Positions 38,753 through 50,028 of a stretch of DNA of 64,000 nt are shown in pieces. Position numbers and translations under genes: made by a program. The DNA comes from Candidatus Phaeomarinobacter ectocarpi (GTDB lineage Bacteria > Pseudomonadota > Alphaproteobacteria > CGMCC-115125). Under the pieces are notes generated by a model. It was not told the origin of the DNA. It did not search any database and saw only the letters and a list, made by a program, of their open reading frames with translations. The stretch spans positions 2,072,274-2,136,273 of the forward strand of contig NZ_HG966617.1 in NCBI RefSeq assembly GCF_000689395.1, in the 5' to 3' direction. The first letter of the stretch is position 1; each line of letters starts with the position of its first letter.

Positions 38753-40222
38753 TTAGCTGCCTTCAACCCGAAGAGCGACGAAGCTGGTTTCACCACCACG
38801 GCTGATCTGCAGCAGCACGGACTTCAACCCTTCAGACTTGGCGCGAGCAACCTGCTCTTCCACCTTGTCCGGATTGGTCACGTTTTCCTGTGCAACCTTG
38901 ACGATGACATCACCTGGACGCACCCGCTTCTCAGCAGCCTGACTGCCAGGAACAACGGCGACGACAAGCACACCGTCCACATCATCGGCAACTTCGTACT
39001 GCGCCCGCAGTACGTCGTTCAGCGAGGACAGGGACAGGCCGAGCGTTTCATTCTCGGCAGGCTTACGCGGCTCAGCCTTGGCTTCAACGGTGCCGTCAGC
39101 TTCTTCAAGACGCCCAAGAGTGACCTGATAGGTTTCCTCCTTGCCGTCACGCAGAACCAGCACATCCACAGCCTTGCCAACTTCAGTGTCCGCAACAATG
39201 CGCGGAAGATCCCGCATCTTGTCGACAGGCTTGCCGTCGAACTTGATGATCACATCACCTGCTTCAAGACCACTGCCGACGGCGGGGCCACCTTCCTGGA
39301 TGCCCGCAACAAGAGCACCCTTGGTGTCTTCAAGACCCAGGCCTTCAGCCAGATCATCGGTGACTGTCTGAATACGCACACCAAGCCAGCCACGGCGTGT
39401 TTCACCAAATTCCTTCAGCTGATCGATGACGCTTGTGGCCGTCGTCGCAGGAATGGAGAAGCCGATGCCGATTGACCCGCCGGTTGGTGAAATGATGGCT
39501 GTGTTCACACCCATGACTTCGCCGGCCATGTTGAACAGCGGGCCACCGGAGTTGCCGCGGTTGATCGAGGCATCTGTCTGCAAGAACGCGTCATACGGAC
39601 CGGCATTGATGTCGCGGTCACGCGCCGAAAGGATACCGGCGGTTACCGTGCCACCAAGGCCAAACGGGTTACCAATCGCCATGACCCAGTCGCCGACGCG
39701 CAGGGCTTCGCTGTCGCCGAAGCGAACGAAGGGCAGCTTGCGGTCCGCTTTCACCTTGAGCAGGGCCAGGTCCGTCTTGGGATCACGCCCCAGAACTTCA
39801 GCGTCCAGTGTTTCGCCATCGGAGAACGTAACCGTCACTTCGTCGGCGTCTTCCACCACGTGGTTGTTGGTGACAACCAGACCATCGGGGTCAATCACAA
39901 AACCGGAGCCAAGTGACTGCACCTTGCGGGACTGCTGTTCGCCGCCATGGCGCTCAAGAAATTCTTCGAAATATTCCTCAAACGGGGAGCCCGGAGGAAA
40001 TTCGGGGAGCGGGACACCGCTGCCACCGGACACAGTCTGTGCCGTTGAAATATTGACCACTGCAGGCGTTAGCTTTTCAGCGAGGTCTGCAAAGCTCTCA
40101 GGCGCGGACCGTGCGTCTGCCGGTGTCCAGGCAAGAGAGGCTGCGCCAATCGCCACAACGCCAAGTGCGAGCGTTGCTGCGCGCGCAATGCGGGTGGCGG
40201 AAAATGTTGTTTGGAATGTCAC
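38753..40222 (-). CDS. degP: Periplasmic serine protease DegP/HtrA (Do family)
   Basis: Degrades or refolds damaged envelope proteins. The 489-residue protein has a signal peptide (cleaved near residue 38), the catalytic triad His121 (NNHVV), Asp151 (KTDLALL) and Ser225 (GNSGGPLF), and two PDZ domains at about 285-370 and 400-480. A long LA-like loop rich in Pro and Glu lies at 64-98. It follows the hflK-hflC-DUF2065 genes on the same strand, a common alphaproteobacterial order pointing to membrane quality control. Confidence 0.97.
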   Translation of the reverse strand: MTFQTTFSATRIARAATLALGVVAIGAASLAWTPADARSAPESFADLAEKLTPAVVNISTAQTVSGGSGVPLPEFPPGSPFEEYFEEFLERHGGEQQSRKVQSLGSGFVIDPDGLVVTNNHVVEDADEVTVTFSDGETLDAEVLGRDPKTDLALLKVKADRKLPFVRFGDSEALRVGDWVMAIGNPFGLGGTVTAGILSARDRDINAGPYDAFLQTDASINRGNSGGPLFNMAGEVMGVNTAIISPTGGSIGIGFSIPATTATSVIDQLKEFGETRRGWLGVRIQTVTDDLAEGLGLEDTKGALVAGIQEGGPAVGSGLEAGDVIIKFDGKPVDKMRDLPRIVADTEVGKAVDVLVLRDGKEETYQVTLGRLEEADGTVEAKAEPRKPAENETLGLSLSSLNDVLRAQYEVADDVDGVLVVAVVPGSQAAEKRVRPGDVIVKVAQENVTNPDKVEEQVARAKSEGLKSVLLQISRGGETSFVALRVEGS

Positions 40223-40431
40223 TTGAGGACGTCTCCTTGGGTTTTCTCGAAGGCCCCAGCCGGTGAGTGAACTGATTGTCAGAGCCAGGTGGCGCTCCCG
40301 ACAAGATATGCCGCGAAACGCCTTGTTCTAGGGTACTGCCCATTTCACTAGCGTTAACCACAAAGCTGGGCAGAAAAAGGACAAGCGGCTTGATACACAT
40401 CCGCATTCTCTCGCTTATCGGCAGAAAATGT

Positions 40432-40487
40432 GGGCAAAAGGAGGCGCTTTGCCCCCATGAACATTACGTTTTCGTGAGGTTCATGGG
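40432..40487. repeat. Two adjacent hairpins between the DUF2065 gene and degP
   Basis: gggcaaa (40432-40438) pairs with tttgccc (40448-40454), and cccatgaac (40454-40462) pairs exactly with gttcatggg (40479-40487). The two hairpins share a base and stand in the 292-base gap between the DUF2065 gene and degP. Neither has a U-run in the minus direction. They may mark the end of the hflKC transcript or the degP leader; the rest of the gap shows nothing else I can name. Confidence 0.5.
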
Positions 40488-40514
40488 TCTGGCCCACAGC
40501 CCTGATCGCAGGCC

Positions 40515-40700
40515 TTAGCCGCGCACCAGCCAGACAATCACCAGGCCCATCGACGCCGCCAATAATCCGCCCATGCGCAAGGAAGCGTCAGGCGTATCTT
40601 CCACCATCTTCAGCATACGGCGGAACAGCTGGGGGAAAGCAGCATAGGCCACGCCCTCTATGACGAGGACGAGGCCTATGGCAACCACAAGATCGGTCAT
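40515..40700 (-). CDS. Small membrane protein of the DUF2065 (YjeT-like) family
   Basis: 61-residue protein with two membrane segments: VVAIGLVLVIEGVAYAAFP at the N-terminus and GGLLAASMGLVIVWLVRG at the end, joined by a charged loop (RRMLKMVEDTPDASLRM). The E-G-x-x-Y/L-x-A-x-P pattern and length match DUF2065, which is commonly found beside hflKC. It lies 18 bases past the hflC stop. Function unknown; context suggests a partner of the HflKC complex. Confidence 0.85.
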   Translation of the reverse strand: MTDLVVAIGLVLVIEGVAYAAFPQLFRRMLKMVEDTPDASLRMGGLLAASMGLVIVWLVRG

Positions 40701-40718
40701 GTTTTGAGCACCGCCCGC

Positions 40719-41804
40719 TTACTGGGCAGGCGCTGCTTCTTCTGTTTCAACAGTCGGCTCCGTCACCGGTGGGATATCAATCGGTGCTTCAGAAGGAAGC
40801 TCGATATCCACCGCTGGTGCAGCCCGCTCGAGCTCAGCGCACAAGATGCTGCGCAACGTGGCATCGCCCTCAAGCCGGGTCAGGAGCGCTTTTGCCTGTA
40901 TGGATGCGGACCGCCCAATGGGTGCATTCACGTTTGGAATGGCATTGGGATTGGTGAAATAGCGGAAGAACTCGCTATCTGGTGACAAAACAGCAGTTGT
41001 CTCACCCGCCATCATGGACCGCTCATAGGACTGCATGGAGCGATAGAAAGCAAAGAAGTTGGGATCAATCCCAAACGCTTCCGCAAAGATGCGGTTACGG
41101 CAGGCATCACCCTCACCACGAATGATTTCAGCATTACGTGTCGATTCAGCGATCGTCACCGTGGCACCACGGTCGGCATTGGCGCGAATACGCTGCGCCA
41201 CTTCCTGACCCTGCGCACGGAACTCATTCGCTTCACGCTCACGTTCCGTCTGCATCCGGCGGAAAATGGCCTGACTGTTGGCTTCCGGCAGGTCAGCACG
41301 GCGGATGCGCACATCCACGACGTCGATGCCAAACTGCTCGGCTTCACCGTTCATCTGGTCCTTGATGCGCTCCATCAGCACGGCACGGTCGTCGCGCACC
41401 ACGGCTTCAAAGCTTTCCTCACCAAGTACACGGCGAAGGCTCGATCCCAGAATGGTGCCAAGACGCGAGCGGGCAACAGATTCGTTGCCGACCGAAATAT
41501 AGAATTTCAGCGGGTCAACAATCCGGAACCGGGCAAACGCATCCACCACGAGGCGCTTCTGGTCAGACGCAATAACTTCTTCCGGCTGAATGTCCAGATC
41601 AAGAATGCGCTTGTCGATGGTGATGACGTTCTGAACAAACGGCACTTTGAATTTCAGGCCGGGCTCCAGAACGACTTTCTGAGGCGCACCAAACTGCAGA
41701 ACAAGTGCCTGCTGGGTCTGATGGACCGTGAACAATGAATTGGCTGCAACAATGCCGCCAATGATAAGAACGACCGCAAGGCCGATGAGTGTAGTACGGC
41801 CCAT
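40719..41804 (-). CDS. hflC: HflC, SPFH-domain membrane protease modulator
   Basis: Subunit of the HflKC complex that surrounds and tempers FtsH in the inner membrane. The 361 residues have an N-terminal anchor (LIGLAVVLIIGGIVAANSLF), the band-7/SPFH domain (HQTQQALVLQFGAPQKVVLEPGLKFKVPF), and a long helix with many Arg and Glu residues (REREANEFRAQGQEVAQRIRA). The C-terminus has an extra Pro/Glu-rich tail of about 35 residues. Its ATG shares one base with the hflK stop. Confidence 0.95.
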   Translation of the reverse strand: MGRTTLIGLAVVLIIGGIVAANSLFTVHQTQQALVLQFGAPQKVVLEPGLKFKVPFVQNVITIDKRILDLDIQPEEVIASDQKRLVVDAFARFRIVDPLKFYISVGNESVARSRLGTILGSSLRRVLGEESFEAVVRDDRAVLMERIKDQMNGEAEQFGIDVVDVRIRRADLPEANSQAIFRRMQTEREREANEFRAQGQEVAQRIRANADRGATVTIAESTRNAEIIRGEGDACRNRIFAEAFGIDPNFFAFYRSMQSYERSMMAGETTAVLSPDSEFFRYFTNPNAIPNVNAPIGRSASIQAKALLTRLEGDATLRSILCAELERAAPAVDIELPSEAPIDIPPVTEPTVETEEAAPAQ

Positions 41805-42952
41805 TAGTTTGCCTCCTGCGTCGCGTTGCGACGGCGTTCAACCTCAGGCAACGGCAGATACGGCACAACGCCCGATCCACTGTCACCATCGATCAGCACC
41901 TTGTTCATTCTGTCGAGCACACGTTCCATGGTCTCAAGGTACATGCGCTGGCGGGTCACATTGGGTGCCAGTGCATATTCACCGTAGATGGAAAGGAATC
42001 GGCGGGCCTGACCTTCGGCTTCTTCAACTGTCTGGTCACGATAGGCAGCAGCTTCCTGCTCAACACGTTCAGCCTGACCACGCGCTTCTGGAAGCACCCG
42101 GTTGGCATAAGACTCTGCTTCGTTTCGTGAACGCTCAGCATCCGCACGGGCTGCCTGCACGTCACGGAACGCATCAATAACCGCAGATGGTGGGTTGGAG
42201 CCCTGGATCTGCACCTGCGTGATGCGGATACCCGCACCATATTCATCCAGCAGGTTCTGCATCAGGTCCGACACGCGGGCCTGCGCCTGCAACCGGCCTT
42301 CGGTCAGAAGCGGCTGAATATTTGATTCGCCAACAACCTCACGCATAGAGCTCTCGGCAACCGCTTTCACGGTGCCGACCGGGTTCTGGATGTTGAACAG
42401 ATAGTCGTCCGCATCCTTGATGACCCAGAACACTGAAAAGTCGATGTCGATGATGTTTTCATCACCAGTGAGCATCAGACTCTCTTCCGGCACGTCGCGC
42501 ACAGCGCCCTGACGAACAGAGCGTGTGTCTTCACCGGTCCGCATGCCCACATCAACGCGGTTCACCCGCGTCACTTTCGGGGTGTAGACCGATTCAATCG
42601 GATACGGCAGGCGGTAGTTCAGGCCAGGCTGGGTCGTCTTGCTGTATTCGCCAAAGCGCAGAACAACGCCCTGCTCATCCGGCTGGACGCGATAAAAGCC
42701 TGAAGCAAGCCAGACCAGCGCCAGAACGACCACGCCGACGAGAATACCGCGAGCGCCGATGCCACCGCCGGATCCGCCGGGGAATGACTGGCGAAAGCGT
42801 TCCTGCCCGCGCCGGAGGATTTCTTCAAGGTCGGGACCTTGGCCACCTGGACCGCCGGAACCGCCCGGACCACCCGAGCCATTGCCACGTCCGCCGCCTG
42901 AAGGCCCCTGCCCCCATGGACCGCCACCACCACTTTTGTCGTCCCAGGGCAT
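41804..42952 (-). CDS. hflK: HflK, SPFH-domain membrane protease modulator
   Basis: Partner of HflC. The 382-residue protein begins with a Gly-rich, Asn/Pro-containing cytoplasmic tail (MPWDDKSGGGGPWGQGPSGG), has a single membrane segment (GILVGVVVLALVWLASGFY), the SPFH domain (VQPDEQGVVLRFGEYSKTTQPGLNYRLPYPI) and a C-terminal coiled helix. I chose ATG 42952, preceded by GAGGAAG; the frame extends to 43027. First gene of hflK-hflC-DUF2065. Confidence 0.96.
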   Translation of the reverse strand: MPWDDKSGGGGPWGQGPSGGGRGNGSGGPGGSGGPGGQGPDLEEILRRGQERFRQSFPGGSGGGIGARGILVGVVVLALVWLASGFYRVQPDEQGVVLRFGEYSKTTQPGLNYRLPYPIESVYTPKVTRVNRVDVGMRTGEDTRSVRQGAVRDVPEESLMLTGDENIIDIDFSVFWVIKDADDYLFNIQNPVGTVKAVAESSMREVVGESNIQPLLTEGRLQAQARVSDLMQNLLDEYGAGIRITQVQIQGSNPPSAVIDAFRDVQAARADAERSRNEAESYANRVLPEARGQAERVEQEAAAYRDQTVEEAEGQARRFLSIYGEYALAPNVTRQRMYLETMERVLDRMNKVLIDGDSGSGVVPYLPLPEVERRRNATQEAN

Positions 42953-43126
42953 ATGTCTTCCTCTTGATCTGGCGCGCGCACCGCAAATTGACCGCGCCGC
43001 CTTGACTAGTTGCTGACGGGCAGCCAAGTGCTACCCCTCAAAAAGATCTGTACCGGCTTATATGATAGGCAAACCGCCCGCTGCAACGCGAACCGGAATA
43101 AATCGCACGGCATACCCCCTAACTGT

Positions 43127-43142
43127 GTAAGGGAAACCTTAC
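43127..43142 (+). promoter_or_regulatory. Short hairpin with GAAA loop upstream of mrp
   Basis: gtaagg-gaaa-ccttac forms a 6-bp stem with a GNRA-type tetraloop, 56 bases before the mrp ATG in the divergent hflK-mrp gap (246 bases). It could be a leader hairpin or operator; nothing else in the gap is clear. Confidence 0.3.
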
Positions 43143-43198
43143 CGAGCTGACCTTAGCGGGACCAATCCGGGACACCAAATCAAGGACCCTTTAGCGAT

Positions 43199-44335
43199 AT
43201 GACCAGCCGTTCTGGACCGAACAGGGATCAAATCCTCGCCGCCCTGGCCACCGTCAGCGCCCCCAACGGCAAAACCCTGCCTGATGCGGGCCTGGTTCAA
43301 GGGCTGGTGATCCGTGATGGCAATGTGGGATTTGCCCTCGAAATTGACCCGGCTCAGGCTGAGGTGATGGAGGAAATCCGCGTCGCGGCAGCTGCAGCGG
43401 TCAAGGACGTTCCCGGAGTCCTGTCGGTCACCGCTGTTCTGACAGCCCACAACGAAGCCCCCTCAGCACCGCCACCCAGGCAGGACGCCGCGCCCCAGGC
43501 GCCGACACACGCACCGGGCGGGAAAACCGGCCCGCTCGACATTCCCGGCGTCGGCGCCATCGTGGCAGTCGCCAGCGGCAAGGGCGGCGTTGGCAAATCA
43601 ACCCTTGCTGTCAATCTCGCTCTGGGACTTCACGCGCTCGGCCTGAAAGTCGGGTTGCTGGATGCCGACGTGTACGGCCCCTCCATCCCCCGCATGCTGG
43701 GCCTCAACCGCAAACCGGATGCCAGCGAAAGCAAGAAACTCATTCCGCTCGAGGCCTATGGCATCAAGGCCATGTCCATCGGCCTCATTGTCGAAGAAGA
43801 CACACCCATGATCTGGCGAGGCCCCATGGTCCAGTCCGCCATTTCGCAGATGCTGGTGGATGTGGAATGGGCACCCATTGATGTTCTGATCGTCGACATG
43901 CCACCGGGCACCGGCGACGCACAGCTGACCCTTGCACAACGGGTCCCCATGACCGGCGCCGTGATTGTTTCCACCCCGCAGGAAATTGCCCTCATCGATG
44001 CTCGCAAGGCCGTCGCGATGTTTGAAAAAACGCGGGTGCCCATTCTGGGTGTCGTGGAAAACATGGCCTGGCTCGAAATGCCGGACGGGTCCCGCAATCA
44101 CATCTTCGGTGAGGGCGGCGCCCGCAAGACCGCTGAAAAGCTGAACGTACCGTTTCTTGGCGAGGTGCCATTGATCACGGCCATTCGTGAAGGCGGTGAC
44201 GATGGCAGGCCGGTGTCTGGCGTCGAGCCGGACGGCCCATCGGCATCCGTATTCAAACAGATTGCCGCCGGGTTGATGGCATCCCTCGAAAACACAGGAC
44301 AAAAACCCGCCCCACGCATCGTCGTCACAGATTGA
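43199..44335 (+). CDS. mrp: Mrp/NBP35-family P-loop ATPase, iron-sulfur carrier type
   Basis: Deviant-Walker ATPase proposed to carry Fe-S clusters to apoproteins. The 378 residues have an N-terminal MIP18-like (DUF59) domain of about 90 residues, a Pro/Ala linker, then ASGKGGVGKSTLAVNLA (deviant Walker A), DADVYGPSIPRMLGL and VDMPPGTGDAQLTLAQ. The C-terminal CxxC that bridges a cluster in many homologues is absent here: the corresponding stretch reads ENMAWLEMPDGSRNHIFGEGG. That loss occurs in other alphaproteobacterial members, to my knowledge. Divergent from hflK. Confidence 0.95.
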   Translation: MTSRSGPNRDQILAALATVSAPNGKTLPDAGLVQGLVIRDGNVGFALEIDPAQAEVMEEIRVAAAAAVKDVPGVLSVTAVLTAHNEAPSAPPPRQDAAPQAPTHAPGGKTGPLDIPGVGAIVAVASGKGGVGKSTLAVNLALGLHALGLKVGLLDADVYGPSIPRMLGLNRKPDASESKKLIPLEAYGIKAMSIGLIVEEDTPMIWRGPMVQSAISQMLVDVEWAPIDVLIVDMPPGTGDAQLTLAQRVPMTGAVIVSTPQEIALIDARKAVAMFEKTRVPILGVVENMAWLEMPDGSRNHIFGEGGARKTAEKLNVPFLGEVPLITAIREGGDDGRPVSGVEPDGPSASVFKQIAAGLMASLENTGQKPAPRIVVTD

Positions 44336-44339
44336 ACGC

Positions 44340-44368
44340 AAAACGGGGCTCTCGCATGAGAGCCCCGT
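44340..44368. terminator. Bidirectional terminator between mrp and the FPGDRNP protein gene
   Basis: acggggctctc and gagagccccgt make a perfect 11-bp stem with loop gcat, 7 bases after the mrp stop. On the minus strand UUUU follows, so it probably ends the small gene's transcript as well. Confidence 0.85.
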
Positions 44369-44415
44369 TGGCAGCGTCATGGGTTCAGAACCCGGGACGT
44401 ATTTTCATGCGGGTG

Positions 44416-44706
44416 TTACACGCGACCATGCGGGTTGCGGTCACCAGGAAATTCGTCTGGCTGCAGAGCGATATTGCTCTGGGCAGAGGAACCTGCGGCA
44501 GACGTTGTGCCGTGCTGATGGCCGGGATTGCGGTCGCCAGGGAAGTCGTCATTGCTCATGTGAGCAGTCTTGTCAGCAGATACAGCCTGCTCAACAGCAA
44601 CCGGCGCATGCGGGTTGCGGTCACCTGGGAAATCACCAGATGCTCCAGCAGCAAGAGCGGGAGCGGAAATTGCGACAAGCGCAGCTGAGATCAAAAGCGT
44701 TTTCAT
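44416..44706 (-). CDS. Small secreted protein with three FPGDRNP repeats, unknown family
   Basis: I do not recognise this 96-residue protein. It has a clear signal peptide (KTLLISAALVAISAPALA, cleavage near 19-20). The mature 76 residues carry three near-identical nonapeptides: DFPGDRNPH at 25-33, DFPGDRNPG at 54-62 and EFPGDRNPH at 85-93, spaced 29 and 31 residues apart. The linkers are Ala/Ser/His-rich and unlike each other, so the motif is what is conserved. There are no cysteines. A strong GGAGG precedes the ATG and a perfect terminator follows, so it is a real, well-expressed monocistronic gene. A periplasmic or extracellular role, perhaps metal or ligand binding through the Asp/His-rich motifs, is only inference. 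Confidence 0.8.
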   Translation of the reverse strand: MKTLLISAALVAISAPALAAGASGDFPGDRNPHAPVAVEQAVSADKTAHMSNDDFPGDRNPGHQHGTTSAAGSSAQSNIALQPDEFPGDRNPHGRV

Positions 44707-44870
44707 TGGATGTCCTCCGGACGTTTGTTGTTGATTACCTCATGCACATCCTTGTGCCGCTCCAATGTGCGCATTCAGCCAATCACACGCACATCAAGCC
44801 GACACGCATATGTGTGAGACACCCGTGAGTACACAAATCCGCAGTCTTCCGCCCGCCTCATCGCACAAAC

Positions 44871-44901
44871 ACAAAGGGCCGGAGCATTTCTGCCCCGGCC
44901 C
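44871..44901 (-). terminator. Terminator after the small secreted protein gene at 44924
   Basis: Minus-strand GGGCCGG and CCGGCCC form a 7-bp GC stem around a 12-base loop, followed by UUUGUGUUUGUG, 23 bases past the gene stop. Confidence 0.7.
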
Positions 44902-44923
44902 CGTGATCGCGTGTGATGGATTG

Positions 44924-45271
44924 TTAGCGTCCAGCGACGAGAGTGGCGCTTTCAGCGGACCCATCAGGTGCTGTGAGTTCCCATGTATCGCCAACAGCAC
45001 GCTCGGCTGCTTCAACACAGTAAGGACCGGTCTCAGCAGTTGCCGCTGAGGAGAAGCATGCTTCTTCGCCCGCAATCTCCCACGTGCCATCCAGGGTCGT
45101 GTCACCCATGACCTGCGAATAGCTGCCGTCTGCATTGATCAGCACAGAGCGCTCTGCGCCGTCAGCACCGGTGACATTCACGGTGTTCTCATAGAACGAG
45201 GCCATGGGGTCAGCCAGCGCTACACCCGTCATAAAACCAAGGGCTGCAAGCGTTGCAAAAATAAGTTTCAT
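44924..45271 (-). CDS. Small secreted protein, unknown function
   Basis: 115 residues with a signal peptide (KLIFATLAALGFMTGVALA, cleaved before DPMASFYENTV). The mature part is beta-rich in appearance, with VNVTGADGAERSVLINADGSYSQ, WEIAGEEACF and a second Cys (GPYCVEAAE) that may form a disulfide. I chose ATG 45271 because the signal peptide starts there; the frame extends to 45313. It follows the SMP-30 gene's stop with a 4-base overlap into its tail, on the same strand. No family recognised. Confidence 0.75.
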   Translation of the reverse strand: MKLIFATLAALGFMTGVALADPMASFYENTVNVTGADGAERSVLINADGSYSQVMGDTTLDGTWEIAGEEACFSSAATAETGPYCVEAAERAVGDTWELTAPDGSAESATLVAGR

Positions 45272-46329
45272 CGTCGGTTCCTCCCAGAACGCGTTTTGTT
45301 TTTGGCACCCCACACAGAGGTTTGGTTAACGCGGAGGAGACAGTGCCACAAAAAACAATCCGTGCAAGAACTGTCTTTCGCGCCAAACCCTTGGTGAGAC
45401 TGGACCTGAGCCCACTTATTCAGGAAATTCAGCGGCAAACCTGCGGTTGGCCACTGCATTTTTACAAGCTTTCCTGTGCCCGAGAGCGTGATGTACGCCG
45501 TCTTGAGGTCCGCACCGCCAAAGCAGATGTTTGTCACCAGAAGATCCGGCAGCGCTGTGTGCGTCACCGTCTGCCCGTCCGGTGATACGGACGTGATGCC
45601 ACCATTGAAGATCGTCGCCACACAGATATTGCCGTCGGCATCCACAGCCAGACTGTCAAAATACTGCAGGCCCGGCGCTGACATCAGCAGATTGGCCGAA
45701 ATGGGACCATCCGGAGATTTCGCGACGCCCGGGCTTTCAATATCGAGATACCAGACACGACCAGACACGGTGTCGGCGAAGTAGACGGTCTTTTCGTCCG
45801 GCGACAGGCCAACACCGTTGGGCGTGTTCAGCGGAAAGGCCTGCTGGGTGATCGAAGACCCATCAGGCTTTGCATAGAACAGCGCACCCCGATCCGTGAC
45901 GCGGCCATAGCTTTTGCCAAGATCGGTAAACCAGAAGCCGCCTTCCTTGTCGAAGACGATGTCATTGGGTCCGTTCAGCGGCACCCCGTCGCACTCCGTA
46001 TACAGAACATCCACCTTGCCGGTCTCAAGATCCACCCGCTCGATGCGCCCACCGGAATAGTCATCCGGTTTGTCGCCGGGGATCAGCAAGCCGTCCTGCT
46101 CATGCCAGGCAAAGCCCCCATTGTTGCAGACATAAACCGCACCGTCGGGACCGATAGCAGCACCATTGGGACCACCGCCAAGTTCAGCGATCACTGAGAC
46201 GTCGCCATCTGCAGATACACGGCTGAGTGTCCCACGTTCGATTTCAACCAGAATGATCGACCCATCATCCATAGCGATCGGGCCTTCTGGAAACCGAAGA
46301 CCTGAAGCAATCTCTGTGAAGTCAGTCAT
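45268..46329 (-). CDS. SMP-30/gluconolactonase/LRE-like protein
   Basis: Six-bladed beta-propeller lactonase or hydrolase of the SMP-30 family, probably cytoplasmic. The 353 residues show LRFPEGPIAMDDGSIILVEIERGTL at the start (metal Glu), GGGPNGAAIGPDGAVYVCNNGG, LNGPNDIVFDKEGGFWFTDLG and NTPNGVGLSPDEKTVYFADT, covering the conserved Asn and Asp metal ligands. ATG 46329 follows GGGAGAAA. The last blade normally ends near GLPLNF; here the frame runs on for about 40 residues rich in Cys, Trp and Asn, overlapping the next gene, which looks like a tail exposed by a shift near the original stop. Confidence 0.88.
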   Translation of the reverse strand: MTDFTEIASGLRFPEGPIAMDDGSIILVEIERGTLSRVSADGDVSVIAELGGGPNGAAIGPDGAVYVCNNGGFAWHEQDGLLIPGDKPDDYSGGRIERVDLETGKVDVLYTECDGVPLNGPNDIVFDKEGGFWFTDLGKSYGRVTDRGALFYAKPDGSSITQQAFPLNTPNGVGLSPDEKTVYFADTVSGRVWYLDIESPGVAKSPDGPISANLLMSAPGLQYFDSLAVDADGNICVATIFNGGITSVSPDGQTVTHTALPDLLVTNICFGGADLKTAYITLSGTGKLVKMQWPTAGLPLNFLNKWAQVQSHQGFGAKDSSCTDCFLWHCLLRVNQTSVWGAKNKTRSGRNRR

Positions 46330-46370
46330 TGGTGTTTCTCCCATGAAACAGAATTTGGTTTTGTAGTTTT

Positions 46371-46883
46371 CTAGTAGCGGCGCGGCGGGTCCCCTGCCCG
46401 GTCAAACCGCAAAATCGTAAATGCGGCGCTGTCATTCTCACCGGCCTCAAACCGCTGCGAGGAAACCTCTGTCCATTCGTCCTGATCAAACACGGGAAAG
46501 AGCGTGTCACCCTCCGCATCCATATGGACGCAAGTGTAGTGCAGCGTATGAGCGTAGGGCAGCGCAAGCGCATAGATCTCCGCACCGCCGGTCACGCAGG
46601 CCTCGTCGGCACCCGTTGCTTCCGCAGCCTTGAAGGCGTCCTCAAGTGACGACACAAGGACCACACCATCTGGCACGCCACCGGCTCGGCGGCTCATCAC
46701 GATATTTGTTCGGCCAGGCAATGGCTTTCCGATGGAGTCATAGGTCTTGCGCCCCATGATGATCGGCTTGCCCATGGTCGTGGCCTTGAAGTGCTTCAGG
46801 TCGCCCTTCAGGCGCCATGGGAGATCGTTGTCAGCACCGATCACACCATTCTCTGCAACGGCCACCACAAGTGAAATACGCAT
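46371..46883 (-). CDS. folA: Dihydrofolate reductase
   Basis: NADPH-dependent reduction of dihydrofolate. The 170 residues have SLVVAVAENGVIGADNDLPWRLKGDLKHFK with the substrate Asp, then MGRKTYDSIGKPLPGRTNIVMSRR and VTGGAEIYALALPYAHTLHYTCVHMDAEGDTLFP. It lies 51 bases after thyA, on the same strand, the usual thyA-folA pair that cycles folate during dTMP synthesis. Confidence 0.97.
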   Translation of the reverse strand: MRISLVVAVAENGVIGADNDLPWRLKGDLKHFKATTMGKPIIMGRKTYDSIGKPLPGRTNIVMSRRAGGVPDGVVLVSSLEDAFKAAEATGADEACVTGGAEIYALALPYAHTLHYTCVHMDAEGDTLFPVFDQDEWTEVSSQRFEAGENDSAAFTILRFDRAGDPPRRY

Positions 46884-46934
46884 TACCTGAACCTCAATCC
46901 GGCGTGTGCTGCAGGGGGCGCCAAATGCAGATGG

Positions 46935-47729
46935 TCAAACAGCGACCGGGGCCTTGATATGGGGATGGGCCTGATAATCCTCGAGGCTGAAATCCTCATA
47001 GGTGAAATCAAACAGCGAGCGCACCTCGGGGTTCAGCACCATCTTCGGCAAAGCGAAGGGCGCCCGCGACAGCTGCTCGCGGGTTTGCTCAAGGTGGTTG
47101 GAATACAAATGCGCGTCCCCGAAGGTGTGCACAAAGTCACCTGGCTCCAGGCCAGTCACCTGAGCGATCATCATCGTCAGCAGCGCGTAAGATGCGATGT
47201 TGAACGGCACACCCAGAAAAATATCGGCGGAGCGCTGATACAGCTGGCACGAGAGCTTTCCATCCGCGACGTAGAACTGAAAGAGACAGTGGCATGGCGC
47301 CAGGGCCATCTTGTCCAGATCCGCCGGGTTCCAGGCGGTTACGATCAGGCGCCGCGAATTGGGATTGGTGCGGATTTCCTCAACCAGCCACTTCAGCTGA
47401 TCAACTGTCCCGCCTTCCGGCATGTCCCAGGATCGCCACTGTTTCCCGTAGACCGGGCCAAGCTCGCCCTTCTCGTCAGCCCACTCGTCCCAGATACTGA
47501 CACCATTGGCCTTGAGATACCGGGTGTTGGTATCCCCGGCAATGAACCACAACAGCTCATGTATAATTGACTTGAGATGAAGCTTCTTGGTCGTGACCAA
47601 GGGAAATCCCTTGCTCAGATCAAACCGCATCTGGTGACCAAAGACGGACAGGGTTCCGGTGCCGGTCCGGTCACCCTTTTGGGCACCATCCGCCAGAACG
47701 CGTTCCATAAGCTCGTGATATTGCTGCAT
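46935..47729 (-). CDS. thyA: Thymidylate synthase
   Basis: Methylates dUMP to dTMP with methylene-tetrahydrofolate. The 264 residues, standard ThyA length, contain [28 protein letters not shown], the catalytic Cys in [12 protein letters not shown] near 146, and [29 protein letters not shown] for dUMP binding, ending in KAPVAV. First gene of thyA-folA. Confidence 0.98.
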
Positions 47730-47778: not shown

Positions 47779-50028
47779 CTAGGGGCAGGTCGTTCCGTTC
47801 GTGAAGCCAATAGATCCAGTCTGGACACCCAGATTTGAGCAGAAAGCAACCGTGGGCACTGTGTTATCCACATTGCCGGACCCGCTGACCACATTGCCGG
47901 TGCCGTCATAGGCCACTGTGTTGGTCGGCGTGCCGTTAAGCGAGGTCAGGTTGATGGTCACGTTATTGTTGTTCGTGAACTCAAGCGCCCGGTTGCCGGT
48001 CACCGTCACAGACGACCCGGTTACCACGAGCGTATTGTTGTCAGAAATATCAATCCCTTCCTGACCCCCTGTTGAAGACAGAGCCACATTTGTCAGCGTG
48101 ATCGTGTTTCGATCATCTGAATCAAATGCTTCAAGCGCGCTTGAGTACTGCCCGCCGGTGACCGTCACGACGTTATCATCATCAATGTTGAAGGATTGAC
48201 CTGCTAGGTTGCTGGTCATCGAGTTCGTAACGGTGACGGTATTAAAGTCATCCAAGTCCAGGAAGTCCTGGCCACCGTTGGACGCCGTAACGCCCGAGAT
48301 TGTGATGACATTGTTGTCGTTACCGAACAGGGCATCCGCACTCACGTTGGTGAATGTTGAATCCATCAGCGAAATGGTGTTTCGGTTGTTGAACGCAATA
48401 CCGTCCACACCGATCGTCGAGAAAGTAGTTCCCGAAATCGCGATGCCGTTTCGGCTGTTCAGATTAATGCCGTCAATTGTCGTGTTCGAGATGGTCGCGT
48501 CGGCAACATTGACGGTGTTCTGGTTGTTGAAGAACAGACCGAACAGACCCCGGTCAAAAACACCGCCTTCGACCGACACGGTGTTGTTGTTAATAAAGGC
48601 CACGCTCGGCGCATTGGGTGTGTTCGAGACATTCACGTTTATGAGCCGCGCGGTGTTTCGGTTGGTGCCCAGCACACCCTCCAGACCAACATTCGCAATA
48701 TCAACATTCTGCAGCACCACAAACTGATCAGACCCTACCAGCACCCCGGTGTTGGCAAAATTGATCGTGTTCCCTGTGACCATGACCGATGCCAGATGTG
48801 TCCGGTCGGCAAGTGTAACTGTGGGCACATTGAGCGCATTGGTGAAGGTCGGTGTCTGACCTGGAGCCGTAAGCGTTGCCACCGTGCCTGACCGCAGGCC
48901 GCGAACCTGAATGCTGCCACCCCCACCCAGCAGTGTCTGGTTTGCCTGCAACGCCTGAGGACCTGCAATGGCGCCACCGCCGCCATCCGCTACCAGCAAG
49001 GTGTTTCCACCAGCAGCCGTTGCGGGTGCTGTCACGCCGGTTGCGCCGTTTACATCAACGGCCCTGTCGAAATCGACACCGGTCAAAAAGTCTTCAACAT
49101 TTTCACGTTCGCTGCGTGCCGTGACAATGTCGGTGTCTCGCTCCAGACCGTCTGTCATTCGACGCCACTGAAGGGATTTTTCCGACATGCGAACCGCGTT
49201 GCCGCCAACGACGGAAAACGGCAGGCGAAACCGCAAGCCCGCTTCCACATGACCACCGCGCACCCTGTCCGAACGCCACTCGGTTTCAAACGCCAGCAAG
49301 GACCCCGGAATGCTCTCCAGAATGTCGTCAATGCGCCATTCAATACGTGCTTTGGGACCGGTTACTTTTTCAAGCGCCTCTTTGTCATCAAAATAAAAAC
49401 CGCCCGCATAGGCCCGAAGTCCGTGGCGCTGAGCGTCAATTCCAAGGGTCTCGATTGGAACGCGAACGCCAACCTCACCATCCACTCCAGACAGCGGAAC
49501 TTCCTGACCGCCAAGCAGAAACACCTGACCGCCTTCAATCACGGCAGATGCAAGGCCCGGAGACCCCTTCGGATCACTGATGGCAAGATAGCCGTTAAGG
49601 CGTAGATCGAAATTGTCCGTCAGAGCTTCCAGCCCACCGGAGGCTGCCCAGAATATATTGTCCTGAGACGTGTCGCGCCGATCAGCACCCGCCCATGCGC
49701 CAAGGTTCCAACCTCCCAGCAGCATATGGCGGTACCCGACCGCCGCATTGATTTCAGAAACCTGTTCTTCAAACAGCTTGCCGCGTGCATCCAGAAAGAA
49801 AAGGCCCTTCTCGCCCTGCACAATCGGCAGAAAAACCGCGGCCTCCGCGCGATCTTCATTTGAGCCACCCAGCGCCCCACCAAGTTCCGCCCAGCCGCCC
49901 CAACGGCTTGCGTCAGCAGACTGGGCCGGAATTGCTCCGACAGTCTGCGCCAGGACAAATATGGCAGCGAATGCGTGTGCACCGCATTTTTGGATTCGCT
50001 TCACCTGGAGGCCCCCCGATCGTCCCAC
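47779..50028 (-). CDS. Inverse-autotransporter-like outer-membrane protein with beta-helix repeat passenger
   Basis: 749-residue surface protein. A signal peptide (AFAAIFVLAQTVGAIPAQSADA) is followed by a region at about 40-320 with alternating beta strands (GYRHMLLGGWNLGAWAGADRR; RGGHVEAGLRFRLPFSVVGG) and then SLQWRRMTDGLERDTDIVTARSE, which resembles the intimin/invasin-type inverse autotransporter barrel and its following segment. From about 465 to 720 come ten repeats of roughly 22-27 residues with the core N-N/D-N-T-V/I-x-V/I, as in right-handed parallel beta-helices (NNNTVSVEGG; DDFNTVTVTNS; SDDRNTITLTN). Two cysteines close the protein. GTG 50004 is an alternative start, with a GGGGGG ribosome site. 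A CtrA-type box lies 24-39 bases upstream. Confidence 0.75.
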   Translation of the reverse strand: MGRSGGLQVKRIQKCGAHAFAAIFVLAQTVGAIPAQSADASRWGGWAELGGALGGSNEDRAEAAVFLPIVQGEKGLFFLDARGKLFEEQVSEINAAVGYRHMLLGGWNLGAWAGADRRDTSQDNIFWAASGGLEALTDNFDLRLNGYLAISDPKGSPGLASAVIEGGQVFLLGGQEVPLSGVDGEVGVRVPIETLGIDAQRHGLRAYAGGFYFDDKEALEKVTGPKARIEWRIDDILESIPGSLLAFETEWRSDRVRGGHVEAGLRFRLPFSVVGGNAVRMSEKSLQWRRMTDGLERDTDIVTARSERENVEDFLTGVDFDRAVDVNGATGVTAPATAAGGNTLLVADGGGGAIAGPQALQANQTLLGGGGSIQVRGLRSGTVATLTAPGQTPTFTNALNVPTVTLADRTHLASVMVTGNTINFANTGVLVGSDQFVVLQNVDIANVGLEGVLGTNRNTARLINVNVSNTPNAPSVAFINNNTVSVEGGVFDRGLFGLFFNNQNTVNVADATISNTTIDGINLNSRNGIAISGTTFSTIGVDGIAFNNRNTISLMDSTFTNVSADALFGNDNNVITISGVTASNGGQDFLDLDDFNTVTVTNSMTSNLAGQSFNIDDDNVVTVTGGQYSSALEAFDSDDRNTITLTNVALSSTGGQEGIDISDNNTLVVTGSSVTVTGNRALEFTNNNNVTINLTSLNGTPTNTVAYDGTGNVVSGSGNVDNTVPTVAFCSNLGVQTGSIGFTNGTTCP

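Follow-up and report, generated by a model that had tools for sequence, protein, structure and literature searches.

An open reading frame at positions 44416-44706 of the window (the whole 64,000-nucleotide stretch of Candidatus Phaeomarinobacter ectocarpi DNA that was analyzed) raises the question of whether a short protein carrying one nonapeptide three times is a real gene product and, if so, what the repeated motif might do. A first-pass annotation had described an unrecognised secreted protein and had guessed that the motif binds metal, sugar, or a partner protein. Reading the frame, referred to here as gene X, gave a 96-residue protein (MKTLLISAALVAISAPALAAGASGDFPGDRNPHAPVAVEQAVSADKTAHMSNDDFPGDRNPGHQHGTTSAAGSSAQSNIALQPDEFPGDRNPHGRV) with the 76-residue mature part, the three [DE]FPGDRNP[HG] copies at about 30-residue spacing, and the unlike linkers of that description. 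The gene and its immediate flanks contain the following features.

44416-44706, minus strand: gene X, 96 amino acids with three [DE]FPGDRNP[HG] copies; orthologues in 4/4 genomes of the genus
44647-44706, minus strand: X signal peptide MKTLLISAALVAISAPALAA, Sec and signal peptidase I type, assigned by eye and from conserved alignment columns
44608-44634, minus strand: motif copy 1, DFPGDRNPH, residues 25-33
44521-44547, minus strand: motif copy 2, DFPGDRNPG, residues 54-62
44428-44454, minus strand: motif copy 3, EFPGDRNPH, residues 85-93
44714-44718, minus strand: ribosome-binding site GGAGG, 7 nt before the X ATG, kept in 4/4 genomes
44342-44369, minus strand: perfect 12-bp inverted repeat with a 4-nt loop between the convergent X and mrp genes; probable terminator with a short T run

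The N terminus of X reads as a Sec-type signal peptide (MKTLLISAALVAISAPALA), in which no lipobox cysteine was seen by eye. Judging by this peptide, X is likely exported to the cell envelope, which agrees with the secretion first proposed. In the mature part of 76-77 residues, the motif copies are spaced by 29 and 31 residues (starts at 25, 54, and 85), and the two linkers between them are dissimilar. None of 20,000 shuffled versions of the mature part contained a 7-mer three times, and the longest k-mer that they contained three times was 4 residues. Because the three copies differ in their codons, they do not stem from a recent DNA duplication and are either ancient or maintained by selection. 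X is single copy in its own genome, and the PGDRNP pattern had three matches in that whole genome, all inside X (0 for a reversed control). The strong ribosome site of the first-pass annotation was confirmed as the GGAGG sequence. Its perfect terminator stood only in part: the stem is indeed perfect over 12 bp, but the T run after it is short (GTTTTGCG) and a terminator scan that required 5 T in 8 did not pick up the hairpin. Transcription termination at this hairpin is likely, though less certain than had been claimed.

X was compared across four genomes of the genus, the source genome (G000), G003, G002, and G001. The order is represented by these four only, so sister lineages are poorly sampled. 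All four carried an X orthologue, and two of them, G000 and G003, are close to each other at X. The G003 protein was 94% identical to that of G000 and had three motif copies, whereas the most distant one, from G001, was 46% identical and had two degenerate copies (DDVPGRNSP and DDVPGDRNPR). The G002 gene is cut by a contig end and showed at least one copy (DYPGDRNPN). The repeats are therefore kept in close relatives, with a copy number that varies across the genus. In G001 the motif is small and variable, one copy being without the D, but its core was retained and the linkers were not; His and Cys are both absent from this orthologue. The gene order, SGL-family gene, Y, X, and convergent mrp/apbC, was the same wherever the neighbors in the genus were readable. 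Between G000 and G003, X had a pN of 0.028 and a pS of 0.263, with 6 silent and 0 replacement changes in motif codons and 12 silent and 6 replacement changes in linker codons. Judged by these counts, purifying selection acts on X, and on this sequence evidence X is a real gene under selection.

We searched for X beyond the genus. A profile search of 385 Alphaproteobacteria gave matches with an E value of <0.01 in 14 genomes, comprising all four of this genus and ten outside it. Inspection of the ten (L040 to L049) revealed no small exported protein that both matched and had a PGDRNP-type motif; the top match among them, L040, had only the signal peptide in common with X. Beyond such signal-peptide similarity, nothing like X was found in the 381 other Alphaproteobacteria. 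DNA matches to DxPGDRNP in four other Alphaproteobacteria were due to chance, lying in long, mostly off-frame open reading frames. The sole match among 84,980 species genomes, in Halopiger (L002), was spurious, with an internal stop codon and no PGDRN motif. Viral contigs, phages, plasmids, PHROGs, Pfam, NCBIfam, and the PDB gave nothing above thresholds. The best NCBIfam match was BRANT (NF047414), which is likewise a small exported protein resembling X from the signal peptide on; it scored 17.2 bits against a cutoff of 44 over residues 6-44, mostly signal peptide, and BRANT is His rich, whereas G001 X is not. DUF4148 (PF13663), another group of small exported proteins with which X shares small size and a signal peptide, reached 10.2 bits against a gathering cutoff of 27 over residues 1-32 only. 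A literature search for FPGDRNP returned no match. As far as these searches reach, the X family appears undescribed, as the first-pass annotation had supposed, and confined to one genus. Genus-wide, the looser pattern [DE]xPGxRN had 40 matches, and no further convincing exported protein was found among the loci read; ten of the 40 matches, which lacked a locus, and another four, on short contigs of G002, lie outside that set. A G001 cytochrome c ends in GDDMPGRNN, but its orthologues end in DEPERNGRPNTETAQ or similar, which makes it a weak tag.

The DNA upstream of X was compared in the four genomes. Its TCAC repeats, which recur every 11 bp, and CTTGATGTGCG were conserved in all of them, including the otherwise diverged G001; no clear -10 element was seen. 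Two elements were delimited in the window.

44793-44798, minus strand: CTTGAT, probable -35 element, identical in 4/4 genomes
44814-44829, minus strand: direct repeat CTCAC-N6-CTCAC with an 11-bp period, kept in 4/4 genomes; probable OmpR-family response-regulator site

There are two TCAC units in G000, G003, and G002 and three in G001 (TCACGGAATGG, TCACGGAACCT, and TCACATGAATG). Of 638 pieces of 200 bp from the window, 2 reached two units, and one of these may be the X promoter itself; the arrangement TCAC-N7-TCAC-N13-17-CTTGA was found at X alone, a single time each in G000 and G001. Direct repeats of 10 to 11 bp are typical of OmpR-family regulators (PMC9275681), and the repeat at the X promoter is probably the site of such a regulator. 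Exported envelope proteins account for many members of the CenR regulon of Rhodobacter sphaeroides, and X is likely such a protein; in that regulon, T[GC]A-N8-T[GC]A direct repeats immediately precede the -35 element (PMC9275681), as the X repeat does its probable -35 element. With a CenR matrix built from the 31 R. sphaeroides sites published in the same paper, the X repeats scored 7.6 (G000), 9.9 (G003), 10.8 (G002), and 11.4 (G001), to be read against a median of 8.6 for left-out true sites and a 95th percentile of 9.4 for the best score per 200-bp piece. Among window positions the X repeat ranked from the top 0.1% (G000) to the top 0.006% (G001). TCA-N8-TCA was present at the X promoter in 4/4 genomes, a pattern that cannot tell one such regulator from another, and CenR, to whose sites the repeat is a weak match, is only a possible regulator of X. 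At tolQ, a CenR target elsewhere, no CenR-type site was found within 300 bp in this genus; the operon perhaps begins further upstream. The 5' leader of X gave no sign of a conserved structure (z-scores of -0.8, -1.0, and -0.1, with differing folds), nor any Rfam match at the gathering score.

The gene upstream of X also encodes an exported protein.

44924-45271, minus strand: gene Y, 115 amino acids, exported protein with its own terminator-like hairpin at 44902-44875

Y is conserved in 4/4 genomes of the genus and has two Cys and a mature part that is likely beta rich. It matched no Pfam, NCBIfam, or PHROGs model, and its predicted structure, made with the 14 C-terminal residues left off, was poor (pLDDT of 51). 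In G002, an extra gene, Z, lies between Y and the SGL gene (L004, 912-1316, minus strand) and is paralogous to Y (31% identity; E value of 2e-8), with no close counterpart in the other genomes of the genus. Unlike Y, Z has ADDTPGRNQP right behind the signal peptide and SDLPGRNR at the C terminus; the short form PGRN is common to Z and the first motif copy of G001 X. The motif is thus borne by two unrelated exported proteins of one locus in G002, an incomplete genome. Its position at the free ends of Z makes a linear, portable motif more likely than a repeat that forms a fold. The motif looks portable, to the extent that Z in this one genome allows.

The mature part of X contains 11.8% Gly, no Cys, and few large hydrophobic residues, with a mean hydropathy of -0.99, and fell on the disordered side in a charge-hydropathy analysis. 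AlphaFold2 run without an alignment, a weak test of disorder, returned no fold and no regular elements of note (pLDDT of 55; pTM of 0.11). In the PDB, no relative of X had an E value below 0.7, and the hits were compositional. These predictions suggest that mature X is probably intrinsically disordered.

How might such a protein act? Our leading explanation, to which we give slightly less than an even chance, is that X docks multivalently, through its two or three motifs, on an envelope partner. X would be exported by the Sec route, its selected units would be two or three short linear motifs of the form [DE]-x-PG-(D)-RN-x-P in a disordered chain, and the freely evolving linkers would hold them apart. 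Each motif would be bound by the same folded, putative partner in the periplasm or outer envelope, for which X would act as an adaptor, ligand, or competitor, and an OmpR-family response regulator would bind the 11-bp TCAC repeats beside CTTGAT, probably switching X's own promoter. The absence of replacements in motif codons, the survival of the motif core in G001 without the linkers, the restriction of PGDRNP to X in the G000 genome, the free-end copies of Z, the predicted disorder, and the conserved promoter arrangement, confined to X in G000 and G001, all speak for docking. Against it count the putative status of the partner, the presence of X in four genomes only, with the G002 copy cut, and the origin of Z in a single incomplete genome; the variability of the G001 motif would also allow a looser reading. 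An extension, which we regard as unlikely, is that D-x-PG-(D)-RN is a portable envelope tag of the genus read by a single periplasmic or outer-membrane partner, with X as a multivalent ligand and Z tagged at its ends.

The same composition and predicted disorder could instead mark X as a hydrophilin-like bulk protectant of the envelope, in which composition matters, the repeats are loosely kept, and no specific partner exists. Like hydrophilins, X is Gly rich (11.8% and 12.7%, above the 6% limit), hydrophilic, and possibly stress regulated (hydrophilins are induced by osmotic or drying stress), and its regulator-type promoter repeats and lineage restriction would suit this role. However, its hydrophilicity index (0.99 and 0.91) just misses the limit of >1, the motif is strictly conserved three times while the linkers change, PGDRNP is kept in G001, and a role for composition only leaves the motif at both Z ends unexplained; we consider a protectant unlikely. 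Multi-copy peptide precursors have a signal peptide followed by conserved core copies with divergent spacers. X fits this layout, and the gene for an HtrA/DegP-like trypsin/PDZ protease lies some 4 kb from X (38753-40222), so that an envelope or secreted protease might cut the linkers and release motif peptides as signals or antimicrobials. The cores are present, but the linkers share no cleavage signature, X is not adjoined by genes for a dedicated exporter, maturation enzyme, or receptor, the G001 copies differ in number and sequence, and Z has the motif at either end of a larger domain, all of which makes a precursor improbable.

Two further readings concern the chemistry of the motif and seem very unlikely to us. 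Acidic and amide side chains in every copy, together with five His in G000 X, could form an Asp/Asn- or His-based metal or small-ion binding unit. The G001 orthologue, without His or Cys, does not support the His-based metal site, the motif resembles no EF-hand, thrombospondin type 3, or RTX-like pattern by eye, and the PDB offered only the compositional hits. A covalent modification site of exported proteins, such as a glycosylation site, would suit a short, exposed, repeated motif with Asn and Pro near the protein ends of X and Z, but the bacterial N-glycosylation sequon D/E-X-N-X-S/T (X not Pro) does not match GDRNPH in G000, where Pro follows Asn and no Ser/Thr stands at +2, and no modification genes are adjacent to X. 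Sugar binding is unlikely for a 76-mer predicted to be disordered. Among the three initial guesses, docking on a partner protein is the best.

X represents a real, undescribed orphan family that is under selection and restricted to one genus; it is of an ordinary kind but has an unusually clean motif. Lineage-restricted small exported proteins make up a large dark part of bacterial proteomes; X offers a selected nonapeptide as bait and a promoter repeat that predicts its switching. With a partner that reads it, the motif would represent a new envelope recognition unit for these Alphaproteobacteria; without one, X is a well-delimited orphan gene.

In the wider locus (38753-47729), thyA-folA and hflK-hflC-DUF2065-HtrA-type protease lie on the same strand as two blocks split by the SGL gene, Y, X, and the opposite-strand mrp. 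These blocks are contiguous in many Rhizobiales, so the segment between them looks like an insertion. The HflK/HflC-type Band 7 proteins and the HtrA/DegP-type protease are nearby envelope quality-control genes, and the protease or its regulators would be a reasonable first place to seek the putative partner, although proximity is weak support in the case of a gene that, like X, is read from its own promoter and converges with mrp. The SGL-family frame (45268-46344, minus strand) runs about 47 residues beyond LNFLNK, the point at which the G003, G002, and G001 proteins end, and extends into the start of Y; G000 seems to have lost the stop codon. Further along, at 47779-50028 on the minus strand, a 749-residue open reading frame with many short N/T/V-rich repeats resembles a beta-helix surface protein.
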